Source of the DNA: Anaerolineae bacterium
Lineage (GTDB): Bacteria > Chloroflexota > Anaerolineae > Anaerolineales > Anaerolineaceae
DNA: 64,000 bases
Assembly (NCBI GenBank): GCA_013178295.1
Contig: JABLWW010000012.1
Location: 1 to 64,000 of the forward strand
Reading direction: 5' to 3'
Position numbers and translations under genes: made by a program. Below the pieces are notes generated by a model. That model did not search any database. It saw only the letters and a program-made list of their open reading frames with translations, and had not been told where the DNA came from. Positions 564 to 12,470 of this stretch are shown here, piece after piece; the first letter of the stretch is position 1, and every line of letters begins with the position of its first letter.

Positions 564-1577
564 TCAGCGAAACCCCATGCCGCGAAAATCGGGTTTTGCC
601 TGCTGAATGCAGTCTGCCGCCTGGCGCGCCTGCTCAAAAACGCACTGCCGCATAGCCAGCTGCACGCCGCGCAGCGGGTGGGTAAAGCGCCCCTCCATGC
701 GGGTTTCGTAAGCGCGGATAAAGCGTTTGAGCCCGTCTTCCAGCAGCAGTACTGGGCGTTCGGGCGGACCGGGTTCAAAATCCTGTGGGGTGATCTGCCC
801 GCTGGCGCATGCCCACAGTGCCACGCCGTCCACCACCGGGCGGAACTCTTCCAGCAGGTCAAGGGCAAGGGCGGGGCGGTTGTAGGCATACTCGTGAAGA
901 AACCCGGCGTAGGGGTCAAGCCCCATGCTCTGCACGGCGCCGCTGGCGGTCTGCGCCATGAGGGTGTAGCCAAAGGAAAGCAGGACGTTGACCGGGTCGG
1001 CAGGCGGGCGGCGGGTGCGTTTTTCAAAACGCCACACCGGGTCAAACAGACGGCGCAAGCCGCCAAAATAAGCCGCCGTGGCGCTGCCTTCCAGCCCGCG
1101 CAGGCTGGCAAGGTTTTGTTTACGCTCCACTGCCTCCAGCGCCTGGGCAAGCTGTTCGGCGGCGCTGTGGATGAGTGGGTCGCTGCGCTGGCGGTTGTGG
1201 CGCAGCAGCAGGGCGCGCTGATGGCTGAGCTTGGCGTGCACAAAGCGTTTTGCCAGCGCCAGGACAAAATGCGGCTCGTTGAGGCGGGCATACTGCGCCC
1301 GCCGCAGGGGGACGTGGGGGGTGATCTCACCGATCAGCCGCCCGCGGTATTCGCCGTTGCGGGTGAGGAAGATCACCTCGCGCCCTTCGCCCAGCAGGGC
1401 GTCAATGGCGGGGGTGGTCAGCCCCACATTGCCAAACAAGATGACCTGCGAGACCTGCCCAAGCGGCACACTGAGCAGGGTCTCGATGTGCGCATCATCC
1501 TCGACGCGCTCCACCTCCAGCCGCTGGTTGCGGATGCGCAGTTTGGTGTTTTGCTCAACGACATACACGGGGGGCAT
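564..1577 (-). CDS. cas1: Cas1, CRISPR integrase
   Basis: A 337-residue Cas1, the metal-dependent integrase that inserts new spacers with Cas2. The N-terminal beta domain (about 1-85) is followed by the helical catalytic domain. The expected catalytic positions are present: Glu163 in GLEGSATAAYF, His228 in AGFLHEY, and acidic residues 240-244 in LDLLEEFRP. An AGGAGAG sequence lies upstream of the ATG, although the spacing is long. A perfect hairpin, ACGCAAA-TT-TTTGCGT (1612-1627), lies in the 89-nt gap after cas6. The gene is intact, so the locus should be able to acquire spacers. Confidence 0.97.
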   Translation of the reverse strand: MPPVYVVEQNTKLRIRNQRLEVERVEDDAHIETLLSVPLGQVSQVILFGNVGLTTPAIDALLGEGREVIFLTRNGEYRGRLIGEITPHVPLRRAQYARLNEPHFVLALAKRFVHAKLSHQRALLLRHNRQRSDPLIHSAAEQLAQALEAVERKQNLASLRGLEGSATAAYFGGLRRLFDPVWRFEKRTRRPPADPVNVLLSFGYTLMAQTASGAVQSMGLDPYAGFLHEYAYNRPALALDLLEEFRPVVDGVALWACASGQITPQDFEPGPPERPVLLLEDGLKRFIRAYETRMEGRFTHPLRGVQLAMRQCVFEQARQAADCIQQAKPDFRGMGFR

Positions 1578-1611: not shown

Positions 1612-1692
1612 ACGCAAATTTTTGCGTGCCTCGCTTACTTCTGCTCAAAATGCCGATGTTTGCGGGTCATCCGCCGGCATCATCGGCGGATG
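1612..1692 (-). promoter_or_regulatory. Two hairpins at the cas6 / cas1 junction
   Basis: Hairpin one is ACGCAAA-TT-TTTGCGT at 1612-1627. Hairpin two has 9-nt arms CATCCGCCG (1668-1676) and CGGCGGATG (1684-1692) and covers the last codons of cas6. Neither is followed by a clear T-run on the minus strand. They may stabilise or process the mRNA between effector and adaptation genes; this is inference. Confidence 0.35.
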
Positions 1693-2530
1693 GTGCTCCA
1701 TCATGGGCGCGGCACTGCCCCATGCCCATGGCGGCGCTGACGCCCGCCCCGCAAAAGAGGGCAAAAGCCGCCAGGGTATGCAGGATGCCCAGCCAGTAGC
1801 GGTCGTAGCGCACGGCGTGATAGCGCGCCTGCCCGACTGCGCCCCAGCGGGCGGCATTGGCTTTCAGGTCGGCGCGGCGGCTGTTGAGATGAAAACTGCC
1901 CACCGTCAGACACTCCTGCGCAAAGCGCCGCGTCTCTTCAGGGAAGGCGATCGGAGCGGCGGCGTTCCATTTATCCAGCAGGCTGCCAAACACCAGCCCC
2001 GGCAGCGGCAGCGGCATAAAAACGCCGTTGTTCTTGAAGCACAACGGGCTGGCAAACTGCAGGGTGAGGCTGCGCGGCAGACCCTCGCTGCGGGTGAGAT
2101 ACTGCGCCGCCAGGGCGGCAAAACCGTTGTGTGCCGCCCATGGGTGCTGCTGCGGGTCGGTATAGACGGCTTGCACGGTAAAGGGGAGGTAATCCAGCTC
2201 CAGCCTGCTGCCCTGTGCCAGCCTGCCGCCGGGCGCAACGGCTTGCAGCAGAATGTGCGTCAGACGGGCGTCATAGCTGGTCAGCCGCAGCCAGTAGTTC
2301 TGCTGCGGCAGCAGGCGGTTTGCCTGGCGTTTGCCCATCAAGTTCGAGACGGTATACGGCTTGGCGCTCTGTTCATCGTGCAGGCTGGCAGCCAGGTTCT
2401 CATCGGCGGCGCGGATCACCTGCAAAAACATGGCGTGCACCGCCCGCCCCCACCACAGCGGCAGCGGCTGATCCTGCGGGGCGGTATCCAAAGCGTTAAG
2501 GACGATGACAAGCGAGAGAAGTTCATCCAT
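1667..2530 (-). CDS. cas6: Cas6, crRNA-processing endoribonuclease
   Basis: A 287-residue protein with the Cas6 pattern: LHDEQSAKPYTVSNL near residues 50-64, which is characteristic of the N-terminal RAMP domain, and a C-terminal glycine-rich stretch GAGVSAAMGMGQ. Cas6 cleaves the repeat RNA at the base of its hairpin. A 15-residue tail after GMGQ is unusual and is read through a hairpin. The ATG is preceded by two copies of a 10-nt A/T-rich repeat rather than by an evident Shine-Dalgarno, so translation may be coupled to csx15 only 16 nt upstream. Confidence 0.93.
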   Translation of the reverse strand: MDELLSLVIVLNALDTAPQDQPLPLWWGRAVHAMFLQVIRAADENLAASLHDEQSAKPYTVSNLMGKRQANRLLPQQNYWLRLTSYDARLTHILLQAVAPGGRLAQGSRLELDYLPFTVQAVYTDPQQHPWAAHNGFAALAAQYLTRSEGLPRSLTLQFASPLCFKNNGVFMPLPLPGLVFGSLLDKWNAAAPIAFPEETRRFAQECLTVGSFHLNSRRADLKANAARWGAVGQARYHAVRYDRYWLGILHTLAAFALFCGAGVSAAMGMGQCRAHDGAPSADDAGG

Positions 2531-2550
2531 TTAATATCAATTAATATCAA
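2531..2550. repeat. Tandem 10-nt A/T repeat before cas6
   Basis: TTAATATCAA occurs twice in direct succession (2531-2540, 2541-2550), spanning the csx15 stop codon and the cas6 upstream region. Each unit is nearly self-complementary. The base composition contrasts sharply with the GC-rich surroundings. The role is unknown. Confidence 0.6.
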
Positions 2551-2930
2551 TAGCGCGCCTGGCGGGCTTGGTCGCGCACGGCTTGCAGGTTGAGGATTTC
2601 TGCCGCCTCAAAGCGCGGCGGCAGTTCGCCCGGCACGGGGGCAAGGCGCACCAGCGGCGGGAAGTACCCCATGCGCCCGTGCAGTTCTGCCAGCAGCAGG
2701 ACGGCGATGTAGTTCAATGAAGGAGGGTTAATCAAGATGGGGGCGTTCTGCCATTCGGCGGGTGTGAGCGGGATGCGCTCCATGAGCGCCTGCAGCTGGG
2801 GCAAAAACGGCTGCTGGCTTTCGAACTGCACCGCCAGATCGATGATGTTCTCTATCGTTTTTCCGCTCAGCCGCTCGATCTGAGCGACTTGTTGCGGCGT
2901 AAGAGGATGCGAGAAATTGAGGAGAAGCAT
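2547..2930 (-). CDS. csx15: Csx15 family protein
   Basis: A 127-residue protein beginning [19 protein letters not shown], which I recognise as the Csx15 pattern (Rossmann-like strand, then 'HPLT..Q..QIE'). The rest includes [26 protein letters not shown], fitting the same small fold. Csx15 is a type III accessory family linked to cyclic oligoadenylate (cOA) binding or turnover, so here it may limit the signal made by Cas10. It starts 8 nt after the Card1-like gene with GAGGTGA as ribosome site. Family assignment is fairly sure; the biochemical role is inferred. Confidence 0.82.
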
Positions 2931-2938
2931 CAGTCACC

Positions 2939-3871
2939 TCACGCTGCGGAGCTGGGTTTTGGCAGCAATTCGCCGCGTACGGCATCCACCAGCTGCCTGG
3001 CATCTGCAGCGGCAAGGGCTTTGCCTGCCTGATAATTTGGCAGTTCGATGATGGTGATGCCGCGCGCCTGCGCCAGGCTGCGCAGGCTGTTGGCGCTGCC
3101 TGTCAGTTTTCGGGCGATGATCCAAAACTTGGCTGTATAGATGCCCAAATACTCCCTGCCGCCCGCTGTTGCCAGCTGGTCGAGACCGCTTTTGAGGTTC
3201 TCCCTGCCGCCCAGCTTGAGCTCGGCAATCCCCGCCTGATTGCCTAAACGGAAGGCAAGGTCAATCTCAATCTGGTCTCTGACGCCTTTGGGGCGCACAC
3301 CGGCTTTGACCTCAAAACCGGCGTTTTTCAGCGCGTCGCCCACCGCCTGCTCAAACAAACCGCCGTTATCCAGCCTGCCGTTCTCGCCGCGGTGATAGCC
3401 GCCCTCGTCATACCCGCCGACGTGGGCGCGCAGATAGTCATCCAGCGTGATCAGTTCGGGCAGTGCAACGGGCTGCTGACTGGGGTCAAGCGGGAGAACG
3501 CGATCCCCCTCAAAGCGGTAGCGGTAGAGCAGCGAGCGGCGGTTTTCGCTTTCCAAATAGACAAACGGCAGCTGCAGCTGCTGAGCCACACGGTATGCCG
3601 CCAGCGACATGATCTTGGTAGCGCCGGTCAGGTTCACCATCCACTCGCCCGCGGTGCACAGCCTGTGCAGTTCTTCGGAGACGCCCTGCAGGTTGTAGGG
3701 GGCGGCTTTGAGGTCGTGTAGGCGGCAGCCGCCGCCGAGGATGTTTTGCAGATGCGTGGCTATTTTCTTTGTGCGTTGGGTGCAAACCAGCAGGTTCTCT
3801 TCGGGCTGAAGAAAGCGTGCCGGCAGTAGAATGGGCATGGGCTGTTCACCCACCAGCGAAAGCAGTTTCAT
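2939..3871 (-). CDS. CARF-PD-(D/E)XK nuclease, Card1/Can2 type (DUF1887)
   Basis: A 310-residue protein from ATG 3871 (AGGAG upstream; ATGA overlap with the preceding gene). The N-terminal CARF domain has the TGATK motif at 82-86 (VNLTGATKIMSLAAY). The C-terminal nuclease domain has Glu174 and the E-x-D / E-x-K pair at 202-204 and 217-219 (QIEIDLAF...GIAELK). Known Card1/Can2 enzymes bind cyclic tetra-adenylate and nick or degrade nucleic acids without sequence specificity. It should therefore be an ancillary effector switched on by Cas10. A longer upstream reading frame is rejected because it overlaps the neighbour. Confidence 0.92.
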   Translation of the reverse strand: MKLLSLVGEQPMPILLPARFLQPEENLLVCTQRTKKIATHLQNILGGGCRLHDLKAAPYNLQGVSEELHRLCTAGEWMVNLTGATKIMSLAAYRVAQQLQLPFVYLESENRRSLLYRYRFEGDRVLPLDPSQQPVALPELITLDDYLRAHVGGYDEGGYHRGENGRLDNGGLFEQAVGDALKNAGFEVKAGVRPKGVRDQIEIDLAFRLGNQAGIAELKLGGRENLKSGLDQLATAGGREYLGIYTAKFWIIARKLTGSANSLRSLAQARGITIIELPNYQAGKALAAADARQLVDAVRGELLPKPSSAA

Positions 3872-5130
3872 GGTTGCTCTCCTATGGGTAATGCTTCCAT
3901 TTGCATTGCGATGCACTGAATTTGTTCGATGAGGTCTTTCGCCTGGCGCGGAGCTTGGCGCATCCCGGCGTGGTCGAGATCGTTGCGCAGGTCGGCAAGC
4001 GTATTCCACAGGGCAAGGGCGCTTTCCAGCTGCGGGACGGGGGCAAGAAACAGGGGTTCAAAGGGCTGTTTGTTCTGGTGGCAGGTTTTAAAGGTATAGG
4101 CTTCCTCGTTGATGCTGCCCTCGATGCGCTCACGCACGGCGCGGTTGGTGAAGTCAAAGCGCTGTAGGTGTGCCATCACCCAGCTGACGAGCCACTCGCG
4201 CGCCAGGGTGACTGCCTGCGCCCAATGCTCGCGCTCGACATACCAGGCGATCATCTGACGCTGTTTGTGCAGCGCCTGCCAGGCATTGTGCGGCTGGTCG
4301 GCGTCTTGCAGCCCCAGCGGCGCAAAGGTGCGCTGCACATTCTCCAGCAGGTGCAGATAGGGTTTGGTGGCAGGGGTGCTCTCCAGCAGCGGCCGCGCCA
4401 ATTCGGTGCGCCCGGCAAGCCCGGCGCACTGCGTCAGAGCGTCGTAGGGGCGGATGAGGTTGAGTGCCTGCGAGATGCCCACCAGTGCGCCGCCCAGGTT
4501 GGCAAGCCTGCCCACCTGCTCAAGCGCCGTGGGGTCGCCCTGCGCCTGCTCTGCCAGCGTTTTGCGCTGCTCGCGCAGCAGCTTTCCGAGATCGCGCGCA
4601 TCGCCGGTTTGGACGAGGCGGTCGGCGGCGGCAGACCATTCCAGCAGGCTGAGCATGGGGGTAAGGTCAAACATCGCCACGCGGCGCACATCGGGGATCG
4701 ATTCGTGCGGCTCGCCCACGTCATACGCCCCATAGAACACCGCCCGTAGGCGCACACCCAGCCCAGATCGCAAAAAAGCCGCCGCCAGCAGCGCCACCAG
4801 CGGAAACGAACGCAGTCCATGGGTGATATCGAAGGCCGCCTCGCTTTGCGGGGGGACATGATCGGCGATGATCTCAAAAATCTGCCACAGTTCGGCTTCG
4901 TTTTTGCCCGTCGGCACCTCCACCGGGCACACTTCCACCCCGGCGGGCATATCTTTGCACAAATCTTCAAAGTGTGTGCGGCTCTTTTCGGTGAGGAAGA
5001 CCGTCAGCTTTTCCGGACGCAGAAAGCGGCACGAAGCCAGCGGGGCAAACTTAGTGATGTACTCCTCGCCGTTCCACATGTAGCAGGCGGTTTGATAATT
5101 CCCGGTGCCCAAAAAGGTGAGCAGGTTCAT
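3868..5130 (-). CDS. CARF-HEPN ribonuclease, Csx1/Csx2 (TM1812) type
   Basis: A 420-residue protein from ATG 5130, overlapping the csm5 stop by 4 nt. The N-terminal CARF domain opens MNLLTFLGTGNYQ and has DITHGLRSFP at 101-110, both typical of the TM1812/Csx2 branch. Near the C terminus the HEPN RNase motif R-x4-H is present (R382-H387 in LRNDLDHAG). Members bind cyclic oligoadenylate and cleave single-stranded RNA. Gene overlap on both sides places it in the csm operon. It should be a second cOA-activated effector beside the Card1-like nuclease; the ligand ring size cannot be read from sequence. Confidence 0.92.
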   Translation of the reverse strand: MNLLTFLGTGNYQTACYMWNGEEYITKFAPLASCRFLRPEKLTVFLTEKSRTHFEDLCKDMPAGVEVCPVEVPTGKNEAELWQIFEIIADHVPPQSEAAFDITHGLRSFPLVALLAAAFLRSGLGVRLRAVFYGAYDVGEPHESIPDVRRVAMFDLTPMLSLLEWSAAADRLVQTGDARDLGKLLREQRKTLAEQAQGDPTALEQVGRLANLGGALVGISQALNLIRPYDALTQCAGLAGRTELARPLLESTPATKPYLHLLENVQRTFAPLGLQDADQPHNAWQALHKQRQMIAWYVEREHWAQAVTLAREWLVSWVMAHLQRFDFTNRAVRERIEGSINEEAYTFKTCHQNKQPFEPLFLAPVPQLESALALWNTLADLRNDLDHAGMRQAPRQAKDLIEQIQCIAMQMEALPIGEQP

Positions 5131-6341
5131 GCAGCCCTCACTACTTGCAGTGTGATCTTGACCCACCCCAGCGGACAAGGGATGCCATCCTTTCCCACCG
5201 CCACCTTGCGGCTTTTGGGAGTGCGTTTTGCGCCCAGCCATGCTCCGCTCCCGCTGGGCTTGCCCAAACGCTGGGTATTTTGATACACATCGACAACTTG
5301 TTGAAAGGTTGATTCTCCCAGCAGGTCGGTGATCGTCTTGGCATCATAACCGCTTCCCCACCCCAGCGGCAGGAAGAAGGCGCTTTTGAAATCCGCCTGT
5401 TCTGCCTTTAGGTTCTCATAAAATTCTTTCAGACGCCTCTCACCGGCATTGGCATAGAAGTCGATTTCCTGATCGATCAATTCGTTGGAGGCTGATTTGC
5501 AGTAGCCTGCCAACTTGCCAATCAACGCTTGACGATCCGCAAACCCAAGCTGCTCCACAGCCGGAGATTGAAACAGGTAGCTGTTAATCGTCATTGGCAG
5601 GTCAAACTCCGTCTGCAGGGGAATCGTCTCGGCAAAGATAGAAAAATTGCCTTTATAGGCCAGTGCGCCCTTCTGGTTGAGCGAAAACAAGCGCACCTCC
5701 GAGAGCTGTAAAGATTGCGGTGAAACAGGCGGCGCATCGCCCAGCTGGATCGCACGGCTGATGTCATAATTTGGATACTTTCCAGATTTAATCCCAGAAT
5801 TTGGAACCATCACCAGCGGTTCGATCACCCCGCCGGGCTTGGCTCTGCTTTTCTTGCCAAAGGCAACCCCTTTGGCATGTTCCCCAATCACCTCCGCCGC
5901 TTTTTGCTGCACCTGTTCAAGTGTGGAGCGCGATTCCAGCAAAAAACCGCGTATTAATGCGCTCCGCAAGACGCCCTTGACCGAGGAACCGGGCAGATAA
6001 GGCGCCCCGCTGGTTTTAATAAATTCCAGCACTTCAGACAACATCCCCTTGCCGACAGCGTTGTTTGTGATTTGATATTTCTGAACCTGCTGCAGCGAGA
6101 TGCTCCTGTTCTGCTGGAGGAAGTCGCTCAGGCTCTGTTTAGGATCTTCAAAAAAAGCCACCAGCCGATCAGAACGTTTCTCATCCTTGGCAGCCCAATC
6201 AATCAATTTACCCTCATCCACAACGGTCAGGGAATCATCATCCAGCAGCAACAGCTTGTAGGGAATTCTTTCACCGCTGCCAATGTGCAGCGGAGAATAA
6301 ACCTCCACGTGCAAATTCAAGCTTCTCAACACATCATTCAT
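5127..6341 (-). CDS. csm5: Csm5, type III-A RAMP subunit
   Basis: A 404-residue protein from ATG 6341 with GGAGG upstream. It opens MNDVLRSLNLHVEVYSPLHIGSGE and carries YLPGSSVKGVLRSAL, the RAMP-family nucleotide-contact loop. The glycine-rich PLGWGSGYDAKTI lies near the C terminus. Csm5 caps the 3' end of the crRNA backbone in the Csm complex and is needed for crRNA maturation. It overlaps csm4 by 8 nt and the downstream CARF-HEPN gene by 4 nt, so translation is coupled. An in-frame upstream extension lies wholly within csm4 and is not used. Confidence 0.95.
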   Translation of the reverse strand: MNDVLRSLNLHVEVYSPLHIGSGERIPYKLLLLDDDSLTVVDEGKLIDWAAKDEKRSDRLVAFFEDPKQSLSDFLQQNRSISLQQVQKYQITNNAVGKGMLSEVLEFIKTSGAPYLPGSSVKGVLRSALIRGFLLESRSTLEQVQQKAAEVIGEHAKGVAFGKKSRAKPGGVIEPLVMVPNSGIKSGKYPNYDISRAIQLGDAPPVSPQSLQLSEVRLFSLNQKGALAYKGNFSIFAETIPLQTEFDLPMTINSYLFQSPAVEQLGFADRQALIGKLAGYCKSASNELIDQEIDFYANAGERRLKEFYENLKAEQADFKSAFFLPLGWGSGYDAKTITDLLGESTFQQVVDVYQNTQRLGKPSGSGAWLGAKRTPKSRKVAVGKDGIPCPLGWVKITLQVVRAA

Positions 6342-7446
6342 ACCGCCCTCCGCGAGAAAACTGTGGAAAGCAGGCAGGCACACCCACCGCCAGGCCGCTC
6401 TGATAGACCGGCCAGCCGTTTTGCTGTGCGGCAACAAGCTCCGCCAGCCGTCCGGGCGGGTCTTCGACAGCCGCCAGGCGGAACACCGACCCGGGTTCAA
6501 ACATGCGCACGGGTTTTTTGTAGACTTCCCCCTTCCCGTCCGCTTCCAAATGGGCAAAGCGCCGTTCACGCTTGGGACGCAGATGAGCAACCTCATACGC
6601 CAGCGCATCATCCTCCCCTCTCAGTTCACCCTCAGCCGGCAGATAGCGCGACAACGTCAGCCAGGCATTGGCGTCATCACCCGCCTGCGGCAGTGTGATC
6701 GGCTGTAGGTCAACTTCAATGTCGAAATGTCCCTTTCCAGTGGATCGGTCGGCGCCAAAACCGCTGTCAGCCAGGTAGCGCAGGGCAGGCAGTATCAGGC
6801 TTTTGAGCGTCTCAGGTTCTGTTCGCAGCGCTGCCCAAAGCCCCGCCCCGCGGCGGAAGAACGTCTCTTGGGTATAGAACAGGTTGCCTTCCACCGTCGC
6901 CCCAGCCAGACGGTCAATGTGGTTGCGCTGCACGGTGGCGCGCCGAAGAAGATTCTCGATCTCGCACCTCTCATTTGCAAGCAGCAAAAACGATCCGAAC
7001 ACCTTAACACAAGGATCACCAACTTTAGCCAAAGCCCGCAGAATGTCGTTTGCCTTCAGCTTCCCCGAAACCGCCTGCGCAAATGCCGCTTCGGAGAGAA
7101 ACTCGGTTTTCTTTTTGAAATCCTTGGCTTGTTCCAACACGGTGATGCGTGCGGCTTTTTTCTTGGTCAGCCGCTGCACATCCTGCACAACTGCGGCAAT
7201 ATCCGCCACGCTGGGCATCAGCCAGGCCGGTCGGGGATAAAAGCGCAAGCGGCTCATATCGGCGCACAGGCAAAATGGAAAAGTCGAACTGAAGGCAAAA
7301 GGCGCCTTTGGCGGGGAGAGAATCTGCGCCAGATCCCCCAGATCCAGCAGGCGGATTGCCCAGCAGACGGCGCCGAACAACGTATCCGAAGCCAGGGCAG
7401 AAGCCAGCGAGCCGCGAGGGAAAAAATAGACCCCATAGGTTTGCAT
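6334..7446 (-). CDS. csm4: Csm4, type III-A RAMP subunit
   Basis: A 370-residue protein opening MQTYGVYFFPRGSLASALASDTLFGAVCWA, the usual Csm4 N terminus with the SDTLFG motif. The glycine-rich loop GFGADRSTGKGHFDIE lies around residue 230. Csm4 binds the 5' tag of crRNA and anchors Cas10. It is somewhat longer than average because of a charged insert near residues 95-130 (TKKKAARITVLEQ). An AGGAGG ribosome site precedes the ATG, which lies 12 nt after csm3. Confidence 0.95.
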   Translation of the reverse strand: MQTYGVYFFPRGSLASALASDTLFGAVCWAIRLLDLGDLAQILSPPKAPFAFSSTFPFCLCADMSRLRFYPRPAWLMPSVADIAAVVQDVQRLTKKKAARITVLEQAKDFKKKTEFLSEAAFAQAVSGKLKANDILRALAKVGDPCVKVFGSFLLLANERCEIENLLRRATVQRNHIDRLAGATVEGNLFYTQETFFRRGAGLWAALRTEPETLKSLILPALRYLADSGFGADRSTGKGHFDIEVDLQPITLPQAGDDANAWLTLSRYLPAEGELRGEDDALAYEVAHLRPKRERRFAHLEADGKGEVYKKPVRMFEPGSVFRLAAVEDPPGRLAELVAAQQNGWPVYQSGLAVGVPACFPQFSRGGRYE

Positions 7447-7458
7447 TGGGCGCCTCCT

Positions 7459-8268
7459 CTAGCGGGCAGACGGCCATTGAATCTGCTCAAACGCTTTGAC
7501 AATCTCCGCCGGGGTCTTGATCTCTTTCAGATCAACCACCTGCGCCCCCGTTCCCTTGCGGTAATACGCCACCGGGCGCCATTCGATGCTGATTTTATCA
7601 AACCTCACCTGACCATGCCCGCGCGACCCAGACCCGCCCAGCGCGCTTTGCTCCAGCAGGTGCATAAAGCCAAACAGTTCTTTGAGCAGCAGGTGTTCAT
7701 CCTTTCGATATTGGTCAACAATCATCTCAAAGTCAAAAGCGGATCCTGCAGGAACGCGCTCAATCGGCCGCGGGTTTGCCTCCGAAGTGACGCGGTCAAT
7801 GGCATTCTCGGTCTTGAGTTCGGTATAGATGTATTCGCCCAGCCTGCTTTCCCACTCCTCTTTGGTTACTTCTGTGGGAAAGGAATCGCGCACCGTCAGA
7901 CGGGTGGGCCCAGCTGCGGCGCGGACGGTGTTGTTATCGCTGGCAGGGCCAAACAAGCGTGCCAGCGCATACACGTTATCCCAGCGGGCGCCTTGCTGCT
8001 CTTTTTCCAATTCACTGCAAGCATAGGCGGAATAGCCTCCATGCTTTGAATGCTTCTCGACCAATCCATAACTCCATTCAGCCAGCGAACGCAGTTTGCC
8101 CTTCAGCGAAGATCCGGGAATGTAGGGATAATCGGTCAAAGGGTCCTTAATCACTGGGTTGTCCACACCGCCAATTTCAACGCCGGTAGTAGTGCCGCCG
8201 ACATGCAGACCGGTCACGCAGTAGATTTCTCCTCGAATGAGATATTTGCCAAGAAATTGATAATCCAT
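7459..8268 (-). CDS. csm3: Csm3, type III-A backbone RNase
   Basis: A 269-residue Csm3. It has GLHVGG near residue 20, Asp36 in IGGVDNPVIKDPLT (equivalent to the catalytic Asp33 of studied Csm3 proteins), the PYIPGSSLKGKLRS loop, and a C-terminal LGGSGSRGHGQV glycine loop. Several copies line the crRNA and cut target RNA at 6-nt intervals. The catalytic Asp is retained, so target RNA cleavage, which ends cyclic oligoadenylate synthesis, should be intact. AAGGAGG lies upstream of the ATG and the gene follows csm2 by 20 nt. Confidence 0.96.
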   Translation of the reverse strand: MDYQFLGKYLIRGEIYCVTGLHVGGTTTGVEIGGVDNPVIKDPLTDYPYIPGSSLKGKLRSLAEWSYGLVEKHSKHGGYSAYACSELEKEQQGARWDNVYALARLFGPASDNNTVRAAAGPTRLTVRDSFPTEVTKEEWESRLGEYIYTELKTENAIDRVTSEANPRPIERVPAGSAFDFEMIVDQYRKDEHLLLKELFGFMHLLEQSALGGSGSRGHGQVRFDKISIEWRPVAYYRKGTGAQVVDLKEIKTPAEIVKAFEQIQWPSAR

Positions 8269-8288: not shown

Positions 8289-8768
8289 CTATGCCTTTGG
8301 ATTGTGGTATTTGTGATACGCCAGAACGGCCTCAAGAAAATCTGCCGTGCGTTCAAAATCACGGTTGGTTTTAAGTTTTTCCTTGCTAAAAATGAGCTTG
8401 AACAGTTCATAGACTTCTTTGGGCAGCAATCCCCGCGCCTGCGAATATGCCAGCACAGGCATCAGACGCAGCAAATCGGTGCGGTCAAAGGGTTGGCTCC
8501 AGTCTGCCTCGGTGCGGCATTCGCGCTCCAGCTTGCGGCGGATTTGTTTAACTTCCGTAAAGACCTTGCGAAGCTGGGTCGGTTTGAGTTTATCCTTTGA
8601 GTCTTGTGCGACTTTATCGGCATAACCTCCCTCTTCGGCAAAAGTCTGGGGCTGAAGGGCGCTCATGCTGCCAAGCTTTCGGATTTCTGCAATCACGTTA
8701 TCGATTGCGGATGGCTGCTGGCTCTGAGAGCGGCCGGACGGTGCACGGTTTGGATTTGCGTAGGTCAT
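8289..8768 (-). CDS. csm2: Csm2, type III-A small subunit
   Basis: A 159-residue mostly helical protein from ATG 8768, chosen because AAAGGAGT sits just upstream and the start then lies 4 nt after the cas10 stop. The C-terminal half carries the Csm2 pattern with LLRLMPVLAYSQARGLLPKEVYELF and TADFLEAVLAYHKYHNPKA. The N-terminal 25 residues are rich in Ser and Gln and probably disordered. Csm2 forms the inner filament of the Csm complex along the target RNA. An in-frame ATG at 8801 would overlap cas10 and lacks a better ribosome site. Confidence 0.93.
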   Translation of the reverse strand: MTYANPNRAPSGRSQSQQPSAIDNVIAEIRKLGSMSALQPQTFAEEGGYADKVAQDSKDKLKPTQLRKVFTEVKQIRRKLERECRTEADWSQPFDRTDLLRLMPVLAYSQARGLLPKEVYELFKLIFSKEKLKTNRDFERTADFLEAVLAYHKYHNPKA

Positions 8769-8772
8769 CTTT

Positions 8773-11265
8773 CTACTCCTTTCTGGTAATGAGACTGACA
8801 AAAGAAATGGGAATACGAAGCGCGGTGATCGCTTCCAGGATGCTTTTCATCAAATGGTCGCGGGTTTGCTTTTTGACCCGCCGTGTAAAGGTATAGTAAA
8901 AGCGCGGCGTCCACATGGGGTTGGCGCGCCTGCTCCTAGCGGCGGAGATGCGACGCTGGCGGTCCAACCGCTCCAGATCATGCACCAGCCCTCTGGGAAG
9001 CTCATTATTTTCAACAGCGTCTTTCAGCTCATCACCCAATTGCAGCAGAGATTCAAACGAGACACTCCCATCCCGCCAGAGAACCTCTTGCGAGAACACA
9101 CCAATGCGGTTGCGTCCTGCGTCTTTGGCGGCCTCGAGTGCCCCTTTTGCCTCCTCTGCAAAACGCTGCACGGGGTAATGCGGTTTGACAAACACCAGCC
9201 CCGCCGAGATGGTAACACAGGGATTGCCGCAGGCGTATTCCTCCCAGCGCTCCTGAAGCAGCAATGCCAGCCTCAGGGCGGCATCCCAAGGTCCCACAAT
9301 GAACAGATCATCGCCGCCGGAGTAGAGGATATAGAATACCCCATCCATCTTGTCAACGATTCTCTTTTGTTCGTCATCGGTCAGGCGCTGCGCCCATTCC
9401 TGCGCTGCGTCGCGGCAAAGCTCATTCAGGTAGCCGCCGAAGAACAGGTCAACGGACTCGCTGAGCGCCAATACCCGCGAAAGCGTCGGGGTGAGATTTT
9501 TTCTATCATCGCGCAGCCCCTCGCTAAAAAGCAGCCCCAAACGGTCAACATCCGCCCGCAAAACGCCAATGCGCTTGGCGCCGCTGGCAGCTTTTGCCAG
9601 CGCCTCAAAGTGAAGCACATCTCCCTCCTCCACAGGCTCCATGCCCGCTTCGACGAATCTGGTCTTTGCCAGCGGGGCGGCATTGGCAAAGAAACGATAT
9701 CCCATCCCCAACGTTGACGGCGCACCCTGGATGAGAAAATCAGTGTTGTTGACAGAGAAAATATCCACACGGCACGGATTCTTAAGCCCGCGCAATTGGC
9801 TCAGCAGAGCTTGTTTTTCCTCTTCGTCCAAAAGCAGCACCGTTACCCCAAAATCTTTGGCAAACTGGTCAATGCGGGTGCCTTTTGGGGAAGACAGGTC
9901 GCCGTAAACAAAAGCCAACGAGGTGGCATGGGGCAGTTTTTTGCCAAGCTGAGCATGCATGCTACACAGGCTACACGTACCAGCATCACTCAGGGGTGTA
10001 AGATGGCAAATGCGGCAAACGTGATACTGGGTTTCATTCGGCAGGTAAAAGTCCTCATCGAGGATTGCACGCGCCCACTTACGGCTTTTTTCCTTCTGAA
10101 GCTGCTCATTCTGCGCCTCAAATGCCCGTCTGAGGTCGGCAAAGTCGGCAGCGCATATCTCCTCTTTGGCAATCGAAAGGCTCAATGCCCCATGGAACTG
10201 CTCCAGCAGCCACCGCTCGATGTTGCGGTAAGCCGCATCCAGTTTCTCCAGGGTAGATGCGTCCTTCGGCACCAAGAGATTAAACCCGCCGCCGCCCAGA
10301 TAGACCACATTGACAGCAGGCAGACCCAGGCAGCGCAGCAGATAGTCCGTCAACACCTCCCCCAGCAGATTGAGGAAGAAAGAGCGCCCGCGCAGACGTT
10401 TGGCAACATGCTCAAAAGAGGCTTCCGCCTCCGGGCGGGTAATCTGGTAAATAAAGTTCTGGATGCCTGAAAAATCCCCCTTTACCAAAAATGCCACGGG
10501 CTGTTTCCAGTCTTCGAGTTTCTCCCTCAGCGCCAGCATCTGGTCAAGCTCATCATCTGTGAATGCGCGTTCGAGGCAGACCGCTATCGCCGACGCGGCT
10601 TTCAAATGTCCATAGAGGGAGACATCGGGCAGGGTGCGCTCACCGGGTTTGCTCTCCCAAGGCGTGGCAGAGGCGATACACCACGTATACTTGCGCAGCA
10701 ATGCCAGCAGGGAAACAAAGAGCGCTTCACCTTCCGCAGAGCTTTTTTCGGCATTATCTTTGAGCGTTTTCATCTCTTCTGCAAACTGCTTCCACAGTTC
10801 CTGGTATCCGACGTCGTTAACGCTCTGAGGCTTCTCTACAGGGAACAGGGTTTCCCGCTCATGGCAGAGCGGTTTGAGCTCAAAGCCGCGCTTTTCTCCC
10901 TTTTCTTGCTCCTCATCCAGAACAAGATGCGCGAGGATGGCTTGCAGCGGCGCTTCCTGCGATTTGCTTTGCTGCTCGTCCCCAGTGCGCCGCTCTTGAG
11001 CGCTCAATCTGTCGGCAAGACAGGTTATTTTGACAATCCGCTTTGTCTCTTTCCAGTTAGGCTTTGCCGTATCCAAATGATGCGACGCGACTGCATCTGC
11101 CAAATCTTCCCAATACGCACGCGGAAAAATCTCCTGCCAGCCCTTTTGAACAAAGACCTTCGCGCCAGCCTCGGCATGTTTCCCGTTTTCCCCTGCCCGC
11201 TGTGCAAACTTGCCGATGTCGTGGAGCAGCCCTGCCAATGCGGCTGCGAGTGTTTTATCTTCCAT
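8773..11265 (-). CDS. cas10: Cas10/Csm1, type III-A signature subunit
   Basis: An 830-residue Cas10. The N-terminal HD nuclease motif is GLLHDIGKF (His15-Asp16). A Zn-ribbon (CRICHLTPLSDAGTCSLC) lies around residue 420. The second Palm domain carries GGDD at about 650-653 (YSGGDDLFIV), the cyclase site that makes cyclic oligoadenylate. Both activities look intact. It should therefore cut non-target DNA and start signalling to the CARF proteins encoded on both sides. GGAGG precedes ATG 11265. It heads the csm2-csm5 operon behind a 190-nt leader region with unusual G-rich structure. Confidence 0.97.
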   Translation of the reverse strand: MEDKTLAAALAGLLHDIGKFAQRAGENGKHAEAGAKVFVQKGWQEIFPRAYWEDLADAVASHHLDTAKPNWKETKRIVKITCLADRLSAQERRTGDEQQSKSQEAPLQAILAHLVLDEEQEKGEKRGFELKPLCHERETLFPVEKPQSVNDVGYQELWKQFAEEMKTLKDNAEKSSAEGEALFVSLLALLRKYTWCIASATPWESKPGERTLPDVSLYGHLKAASAIAVCLERAFTDDELDQMLALREKLEDWKQPVAFLVKGDFSGIQNFIYQITRPEAEASFEHVAKRLRGRSFFLNLLGEVLTDYLLRCLGLPAVNVVYLGGGGFNLLVPKDASTLEKLDAAYRNIERWLLEQFHGALSLSIAKEEICAADFADLRRAFEAQNEQLQKEKSRKWARAILDEDFYLPNETQYHVCRICHLTPLSDAGTCSLCSMHAQLGKKLPHATSLAFVYGDLSSPKGTRIDQFAKDFGVTVLLLDEEEKQALLSQLRGLKNPCRVDIFSVNNTDFLIQGAPSTLGMGYRFFANAAPLAKTRFVEAGMEPVEEGDVLHFEALAKAASGAKRIGVLRADVDRLGLLFSEGLRDDRKNLTPTLSRVLALSESVDLFFGGYLNELCRDAAQEWAQRLTDDEQKRIVDKMDGVFYILYSGGDDLFIVGPWDAALRLALLLQERWEEYACGNPCVTISAGLVFVKPHYPVQRFAEEAKGALEAAKDAGRNRIGVFSQEVLWRDGSVSFESLLQLGDELKDAVENNELPRGLVHDLERLDRQRRISAARSRRANPMWTPRFYYTFTRRVKKQTRDHLMKSILEAITALRIPISFVSLITRKE

Positions 11266-11438
11266 ACGCCCTCCATATATAAAAGATCAAAAGCCGCCGA
11301 ACGGAGAGGAAGCCCCCTTTGCCCCCTGCAACCCCCCCGTTCAGCTGTCTGGGAATAGTGTACCCTATCCACGTCCTGCGCACATCCGTATTTTTACTCA
11401 ATTTTTGTGTGCTTTTCCTCCTTTGGTGTGCCATTTCA
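11266..11438 (-). promoter_or_regulatory. Upstream region of the csm operon with G-rich structured leader
   Basis: Read on the minus strand, this region holds a G7, a G5 and another G5 tract separated by TTGCA and CAAA (complement of 11313-11338). They are enclosed by 6-nt arms, GAACGG at 11299-11304 and CCGTTC at 11337-11342. This is compatible with a G-quadruplex or a closed stem in the 5' leader of cas10. TACACT near 11358 is a weak -10 candidate; I see no convincing -35. An AAAGGAGG at about 11418-11425 is not followed by a well-spaced start codon. Confidence 0.4.
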
Positions 11439-11455
11439 AGCCTGCGTGGCAGGCT
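11439..11455 (-). promoter_or_regulatory. Perfect inverted repeat just after the CARF-LuxR stop
   Basis: AGCCTGC-GTG-GCAGGCT (plus strand 11439-11455) ends on the stop codon of the CARF-LuxR gene and precedes the cas10 leader. The minus-strand downstream sequence TTGAAAT is a poor T-run. It could be a weak terminator or attenuator between regulator and csm operon, or an operator for the regulator. Confidence 0.45.
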
Positions 11456-12312
11456 CATTTTCCCAAAAAGGTGTAGTACAGCCGCAGCAGCGCCACCAGC
11501 TGGGCGCGGTTGACCTGCTCAAGCTCCCAATAGTGCTCGGCTTTGGTGTATGCCGAGTACAGATGGTTCTGCACGGTGCGCACCGATAGGTTGAGGCGGG
11601 CGGCGATCTCCTCATCCGCAAGCCCCTGTGTTACCAGCAGTTCCACCGTCTGGCGCTCGGCGCGGGTCAGCTTTTTCTCAATAAACCCGCTCACCTGACG
11701 ATGCTTTGGCTCCAGTTCCAGCTTGTTGAGACGCTCCAAAGCGCAAAAGGGGTCGTCAATGTGGCGCAGGTGCGTCAGCGCCGGAGAAAGCAGCGCACGC
11801 AGCAGCAGCGGAATGGGTACCAGCTGCACTGCATCCCCCGTCTGCGGATAAAGGCGCTTGCTGGCTAAAAACTCGCCTGCCGAATGCAGATGCCAGACGC
11901 AGTCGTGCGCATCGCACAGCATCTGCGCGGTGAGCATGGCGTAGATGGCAAGCGTCTTGCGTCCGCCTGCCAGCAGCAGGTGCACACGCTCACCCTTGCG
12001 CTTTGCCTGCCACACGGCACGGTAAAGCGCCCGAAAAGCCGCATCACAGGCTTGCGGCGTTTCCACATCCTCAAACAGACTGCCATCAGGGGCACAAACG
12101 GGGTAGAGGGTGTGGGGCAGGCTGGCCTGCGCCAGCGCCGGGAGCAGCCTTTGCAGGGCGGCTTGCACCACCTCACCGCCGGTATGCACCAGCGCCACGC
12201 GCCCCACCTGCTCCTGCCGGGTGCCCAATACAGACAGTGCTGCCGTGACCACCTGCGGCTCGCTCCCCAGTGTTGCCACCAGAACCGTTCCTGCCTGCTG
12301 CGCTTTCTGCAA
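11455..12312 (-). CDS. CARF (NE0113/Csm6-type) domain fused to LuxR-type HTH
   Basis: A 285-residue protein with TTG start at 12312 (GGAAAGGGG upstream). The N-terminal half has VLVATLGSEPQVVTAAL at 10-26 and HLLLAGGRKTLAIYAML near 110-126, the hallmarks of the NE0113 (Cas_NE0113, PF09623) CARF family of CRISPR proteins, some of which are ring nucleases. The C-terminal 65 residues are a GerE/LuxR helix-turn-helix: LTRAERQTVELLVTQGLADEEIAARLNLSVRTVQNHL. No nuclease domain is present. It lies immediately upstream of cas10 on the same strand and is divergent from chrA. It probably senses cyclic oligoadenylate and controls transcription; ligand and targets are inferred. Confidence 0.85.
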   Translation of the reverse strand: MQKAQQAGTVLVATLGSEPQVVTAALSVLGTRQEQVGRVALVHTGGEVVQAALQRLLPALAQASLPHTLYPVCAPDGSLFEDVETPQACDAAFRALYRAVWQAKRKGERVHLLLAGGRKTLAIYAMLTAQMLCDAHDCVWHLHSAGEFLASKRLYPQTGDAVQLVPIPLLLRALLSPALTHLRHIDDPFCALERLNKLELEPKHRQVSGFIEKKLTRAERQTVELLVTQGLADEEIAARLNLSVRTVQNHLYSAYTKAEHYWELEQVNRAQLVALLRLYYTFLGK

Positions 12313-12338
12313 AGCTGACCCCTTTCCTGATATGCACG

Positions 12339-12393: not shown

Positions 12394-12470
12394 GCACCCC
12401 CTGCCGGGGGAACTGAGAGCGGTGGGGGAGGGTGTGTCTCTTTGCGCAGCAGGCAGATGGCAGGGGGTGC
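12394..12470. repeat. 12-nt inverted repeat in the CARF-LuxR / chrA divergent region
   Basis: GCACCCCCTGCC (12394-12405) and its exact complement GGCAGGGGGTGC (12459-12470) flank 53 nt. The right arm lies just upstream of the chrA -10. Within the left part, CCCC-CTGC-CGGGG could form a smaller hairpin. It could be an operator pair, a small palindromic element or a transcript hairpin. Confidence 0.6.

Follow-up and report, generated by a model that had tools for sequence, protein, structure and literature searches.

A CARF-LuxR-type regulator and a predicted conserved operator at the head of type III-A CRISPR loci in Anaerolineae and other bacteria

How cyclic oligoadenylates affect transcription is an open question. 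The characterised factor that joins a CARF sensor to a helix-turn-helix (HTH) domain, Csa3 of Saccharolobus, binds cyclic tetra-adenylate (cA4) without ring nuclease activity, and its binding to promoters in vitro is independent of cA4 (PMC8699464, PMC8844856); ligand control of DNA binding therefore cannot be assumed for the protein described here. For NE0113-type CARF proteins without effector domains, a transcription-regulating role has been predicted (Makarova et al., 2014, PMC4012209); type III effectors were surveyed in 2024, with transcription regulators deferred to a later study (PMC11229360). PADLOC catalogues a model, PDLC01851 ('CARF3--CARF'), whose name mentions neither an HTH nor a function and to which no operator is attached. 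Two further groups serve as points of reference: the Crn1 ring nucleases (Sso2081, Sis0455) and Cad1, which are CARF-containing enzymes, and the LuxR/NarL/GerE regulators, whose sensors are autoinducer-binding, PAS/LOV or receiver domains. The classic position of LuxR class-II sites is near -42.5, and factors bound there are typically activators.

The 64,000-nucleotide stretch of Anaerolineae DNA analysed here (the window) begins at a contig end and carries a type III-A locus, the first gene of which encodes a CARF domain followed by an HTH, without a catalytic effector domain (Table 1). The protein falls within the CARF-HTH regulators, a known kind. The original prediction, a fusion of an NE0113/Csm6-type CARF domain to a GerE-type HTH without a nuclease, is borne out by sequence and predicted structure alike: the motifs quoted in its favour are present, Pfam places Cas_NE0113 (PF09623) at residues 18-162 (E 4e-27; 95.8 bits against a gathering score of 23) and GerE (PF00196) at residues 214-257 (E 7e-7; 29.3 bits against 23.5), both above the gathering cut-off, and the domain search found no nuclease domain. 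In the AlphaFold model (mean pLDDT 92, built from 19 aligned relatives) a CARF fold and a LuxR-type HTH fold are recovered, the former resembling Cad1-CARF and Sso2081-type (Crn1) ring nucleases (Z about 15-18), the latter, at the C terminus, LuxR-type EL222 (Z 11.7, 1.6 Å over 76 residues). The gene also lies, as proposed, between cas10 and a divergently transcribed upstream chrA.

Comparison with the described families sharpens this assignment. PDLC01851 matches the regulator over its full length (residues 9-281, 294 bits). The CARF domain is shared with the NE0113 family (PF09623/TIGR02584) above the Pfam cut-off, but the score against the NE0113 equivalog TIGR02584 (30.1 bits) stays below its curated cut-off of 80.65, as do those against Csx14 (TIGR03642; 57.4 bits against 90.35) and Csa3 (TIGR01884; 22.9 bits against 60.2, through the HTH part only). 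Like Csa3, the regulator combines a CARF sensor with an HTH; unlike Csa3, which is archaeal, type I-associated and equipped with a winged HTH, its HTH is LuxR-type and the defined dyad is that of a type III-A operon. Crn1 enzymes and Cad1 provide the closest CARF folds and profile matches, from which the regulator is set apart by a glutamate in place of the motif-I serine and by its HTH. LuxR/NarL/GerE regulators share the sequence and fold of the HTH and a dyad near -42.5, whereas the sensor is here a CARF domain. The surmise that such a fusion is uncharacterised holds in that we found no biochemical characterisation in the literature searched; the architecture itself had been catalogued (PDLC01851) and a transcriptional role predicted for NE0113-type CARF proteins. 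What appears to be new relative to that literature is that a LuxR-type HTH is paired, at type III-A loci, with an operator and a promoter that are defined and conserved.

Table 1. Coordinates of the regulator, its putative control region and the surrounding locus in the window, with candidate additional sites in relatives
Feature	Position	Strand	Remarks
CARF-GerE regulator gene	11455..12312	(-)	285 aa, TTG start; open ORF
CARF sensor domain, aa 9-175	11788..12288	(-)	pocket residues D82, R118, K119; Glu18 replaces Crn1 motif-I serine
LuxR/GerE-type HTH, aa 214-262	11527..11673	(-)	Q248, N249, Y252 as predicted base contacts (E, Q, R in most of the family)
Plausible regulator RBS, AGGAAAGGGG	12319..12328	(-)	read from sequence
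Putative diverged operator dyad, TGAGTAAAAATACGGA	11385..11400	(-)	centre about -42.5 of predicted start
Predicted -35 element, ATGTGC	11380..11385	(-)	ATGACA in relatives
Predicted -10 element, TACACT	11357..11362	(-)	17 nt after -35
Leader hairpin, G5 runs in loop	11296..11345	(-)	between presumed transcription start and cas10 RBS
cas10/csm1	8773..11265	(-)	first gene behind operator; HD, GGDD motifs
csm2	8289..8801	(-)	
csm3	7459..8268	(-)	RAMP
csm4	6334..7446	(-)	below Pfam cut-off; assigned by position and synteny
csm5	5127..6611	(-)	RAMP; synteny
Csx1-type CARF-HEPN effector	3868..5241	(-)	
Can2/Card1-type CARF-PDDEXK effector	2939..4009	(-)	
Csx15	2547..2930	(-)	cA4 ring nuclease or sponge family (PMC13148439)
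cas6	1667..2530	(-)	
cas1	564..1577	(-)	
Candidate extra site, L204 (Bellilinea, G003)	8088-8107		before 109-aa two-TM protein
Candidate extra site, L046 (G025)	569-588	(-)	before 94-aa TM protein adjoining csm operon
Candidate extra sites, L228 and L229 (G500)			before 55-aa TM protein; before RNase H-like protein
Candidate extra site, L212 (G634)			before 107-aa zinc-ribbon/TM protein
Candidate extra site, L210 (G507)			before RNase H-like protein

The regulator gene lies 189 nt upstream of cas10, and this spacing is the sole sizeable gap in the operon of the window; from cas10 to csx15, neighbouring genes overlap or stand a few bases apart. Whole-genome searches found close relatives of the regulator in the same family, order and class, and a profile scan of species genomes yielded 80 loci from Anaerolineae and other phyla, among them Thermanaerothrix daxensis, Anaerolinea thermolimosa, Bellilinea caldifistulae, Ornatilinea apprima and Leptolinea tardivitalis as well as metagenome-assembled genomes of KSB1, Poribacteria, Latescibacterota, Bipolaricaulota, WOR-3 and further groups. 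The arrangement is recurrent: cas10 follows directly behind the regulator on the same strand in 39 of the 80 fetched loci, several of the others ending at contig ends, and it does so in most near relatives. Because of this recurrence, the arrangement is, as judged by gene order, lineage-wide and not an accident of one genome. Within the order, 38 of 400 sampled genomes carry the family, and the idea that its architecture is unique was rejected, the family being widespread and catalogued in PADLOC. One scan of IMG/VR contigs with the regulator of the window as the single query found no viral relatives.

Where might such a protein act? The regulator-cas10 junctions of relatives share the consensus AAATTAsGGGAAAACCCGCATGACA-N17-TAnAnT (17 distinct sites), the dyad of which, TAsGGG-N4-CCCGCA, would be centred near -42.5 if ATGACA is the -35 element and if transcription starts 7 nt behind the -10 element. 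The motif lies either within the last codons of the regulator gene or just behind its stop codon and is kept in both settings, with 17 nt between the -35 and -10 elements. With a leave-one-out matrix, the best site scored above all 100 dinucleotide shuffles at 30 of 33 junctions and above 20 bits at 26 of them; the motif was discovered in the very junctions scored, and a genomic pattern search served as the independent test. In this search, a strict 20-nt pattern occurred at 19 sites in 17 of 400 genomes of the order and its reversed control at none, and 16 of the 17 genomes belong to the 38 carriers of the regulator family detected in an identically drawn set of 400 (hypergeometric 2e-17, a value that overstates the number of independent events, carriers being phylogenetically non-independent). 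A strict site in genome G734, with neither a -10 element nor a correctly placed gene, was judged to be a chance occurrence. The same matrix gave background scores and no comparable site in the sequences upstream of the regulator gene, and members with the contact residues E-H-G, A-N-S or A-N-T show no significant site at the junction. An operator-like site is predicted, by comparison, at the CRISPR promoter of relatives and, as a diverged copy, of the window. This anatomy, an operator and promoter between the two genes, lends substance to the proposed feedback on the csm operon, and on these genomic grounds an action of the regulator on that operon seems well supported.

None of the three stretches proposed as binding sites coincides with the conserved operator and promoter, which would occupy 11357-11404, between the first two of them. 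The first (11439-11455) corresponds to a small dyad by the stop codon and the second (11299-11342) to a G-rich hairpin within the presumed leader of cas10; neither matches the conserved site. The third (12394-12470) holds an exact inverted repeat and lies in the region upstream of the regulator, which scores at background level. The 12-nt arms of that repeat (GGCAGGGGGTGC; 12394-12405 and 12459-12470) lie between chrA and the regulator. The small dyad, GCCTGC-CAC-GCAGGC, is perfect, covers 11440-11454 directly behind the regulator's stop codon and may overlap with the remnant of an ancestral operator position; a specific candidate for such a remnant, 11447-11467 (TTTGGGAAAATGAGCCTGCCA), which lies at the position of the site in Thermanaerothrix, was rejected as too weak.

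How might the regulator control its operon? We consider it likely that it regulates transcription of its own type III-A operon in a ligand-gated, cA4-responsive manner, with class-II activation as the favoured mode. We envision a scenario whereby a dimer senses Cas10-made cA4 through its paired CARF domains and binds, with its LuxR-type HTHs, the 16-bp dyad near -42.5 of a csm promoter that is located just downstream of the regulator gene and would drive cas10-csm-csx1-can2-csx15-cas6. By analogy with classic LuxR factors, binding would activate transcription, infection would raise cA4 and cA4 in turn the amount of Cas10 and effectors, and the co-encoded Csx15 might limit this positive loop. 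The operator and promoter are predicted from comparative sequence; dyad binding by the regulator, its ligand, the sign of regulation and the transcription start are inferred. Conceivably, the same anatomy could work with the opposite sign, the apo protein occupying the dyad, which takes in the first -35 base, and blocking the csm promoter until cA4 releases it. The near-consensus -35 and -10 elements of relatives, at their 17-nt spacing, look workable without an activator, but the poor -35 element of the window (ATGTGC) and the usual activating role of LuxR-type factors near -42.5 speak against repression, which we regard as a doubtful, if serious, contender.

D82, R118 and K119 of the CARF pocket are invariant in the 19 aligned relatives and correspond, in a profile alignment, to D75, R105 and K106 of Sso2081, which contribute to cA4 binding (PMC10018336). 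Ser11 of Sso2081, which is important for cleavage (PMC10018336), is aligned with Glu18 of the regulator; of the Crn1-type pair of a motif-I serine and a motif-II GRK, the GRK alone is kept, which suggests a sensor without Crn1-type cleavage. cA4 seems the likeliest ligand, because Csx15 proteins bind cA4 (PMC13148439) and because Can2/Card1 and most Csx1 proteins are activated by it (PMC9704534). From the conserved pocket residues and these cA4-type neighbours we infer control by cyclic oligoadenylates. The cA4-independent DNA binding of Csa3 in vitro would rather fit a csm promoter that is regulated without cyclic oligoadenylates, be it through constitutive DNA binding, another ligand or another interaction; the invariant pocket residues and the cA4-type effectors next door argue against this reading, and we think it unlikely.

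The window itself presents a diverged case. Even with three mismatches allowed, the family consensus has no match in the window, and the site was detected only by the matrix: the best match, AAATTGAGTAAAAATACGGATGTGC (11404-11380), is followed after 17 nt by TACACT (11362-11357) and scores 9.3 bits against a maximum of 1.0 over 100 shuffles. The operator of the window thus appears degenerate, and its assignment draws on this score and on its placement. Its inner half-site bases have changed in matched pairs, from GG/CC to TA/TA, and at all three predicted base-contact residues, which we take to be those corresponding to the contact residues of NarL, the HTH of the window differs from most relatives. 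Across junctions, the operator scores higher for proteins with E, Q and R than for others (Mann-Whitney p 2e-5, a comparison confounded by phylogeny). It is plausible that dyad and recognition helix have both diverged in the lineage of the window by co-evolution. These observations bear on whether the dyad is instead bound by an unrelated regulator while the CARF-GerE protein acts elsewhere or merely buffers cA4. Genomics alone connects the protein with the dyad, but strict sites track carriers of the family and adjoin its gene, and site strength varies with the recognition-helix residues, rendering this alternative improbable. Least probable by our estimate is that the protein works chiefly as a ring nuclease and that its HTH is vestigial: Sso2081 and Sis0455 are among the closest CARF matches and the GRK motif is retained, but the motif-I serine is a glutamate, the family conserves its HTH throughout and the locus encodes Csx15 anyway. 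For the favoured reading, a cA4-gated regulator of its own operon, the family offers a predicted natural operator, a promoter geometry and dozens of regulator-site pairs, in some of which dyad and recognition helix have both changed, so that ligand dependence, sign and specificity are directly testable.

Might such a regulator reach beyond its own operon? The suggestion that it switches on host genes found no support in the genome of the window, where the only zero-mismatch match to a window-form pattern is the regulator-cas10 junction (the pattern is derived from this very site and informs only on the lack of further targets) and the four two-mismatch matches are no more than in the control. 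A few candidates emerge in relatives. A one-mismatch pattern yielded 35 sites, against 1 in the control, in 53 carrier genomes; about ten of them are off-junction, and six of these have promoter-like spacing and an open reading frame close behind (Table 1). Transmembrane (TM) segments of the encoded proteins were assigned by eye, and each case is single or nearly so; the RNase H-like candidates (RNase_H E 2e-10) come from G500 and G507, which are two species of the same genus. The sites found in G053:C17, G507:C124 and G613:C33 were not convincing. We tentatively propose a wider regulon in a few relatives. A bolder version, in which a true cA4-gated class-II activator self-amplifies the csm operon and, beyond it, turns on unlinked genes in some relatives, namely those for small membrane proteins and an RNase H-like protein, its operators co-evolving with the recognition helix, would amount to a transcription-based effector arm of type III immunity; we hold it to be unlikely in this full form. 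Should the extra sites upstream of small membrane-protein genes prove genuine, deployment of effectors by transcription may also be within the reach of type III systems.

The presumed cas10 leader has a feature of its own. The hairpin of the window reaches a helix score of 12.5 against a shuffle maximum of 11.5, and most leaders of relatives can form a hairpin with an unrelated, covarying-looking stem sequence and a loop that carries one or two G5 runs. In 31 leaders (the window and 30 relatives), we counted 41 G5 runs (shuffle mean 18, maximum 29); a helix at p 0.05 or better occurs in 15 of the 31, with a mean folding z-score of only -1.3. The hairpin seems to represent no family described by Rfam, because the search gave nothing but tRNAs in six relatives (gathering threshold) and miRNA matches at chance level in the window.

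At the far end of the locus, the models that match cas1 (564-1577) best are those of Cas4g/Cas1g and type I-D Cas1; this is not typical of a III-A cas1 and suggests an adaptation module of different origin. A second, more distant CARF-GerE group (L054, L055, L056) heads another RAMP-containing, type III-like operon with Can2 and Csx15, and at two of its three junctions a dyad-like stretch is accompanied by ATGACA and, at 16-17 nt, a -10 element. In the Anaerolinea thermolimosa relative (L107; G684:C1:221690-222514), the regulator gene carries an in-frame TAG next to an intact operator, reflecting either a recent pseudogene or a sequencing error.
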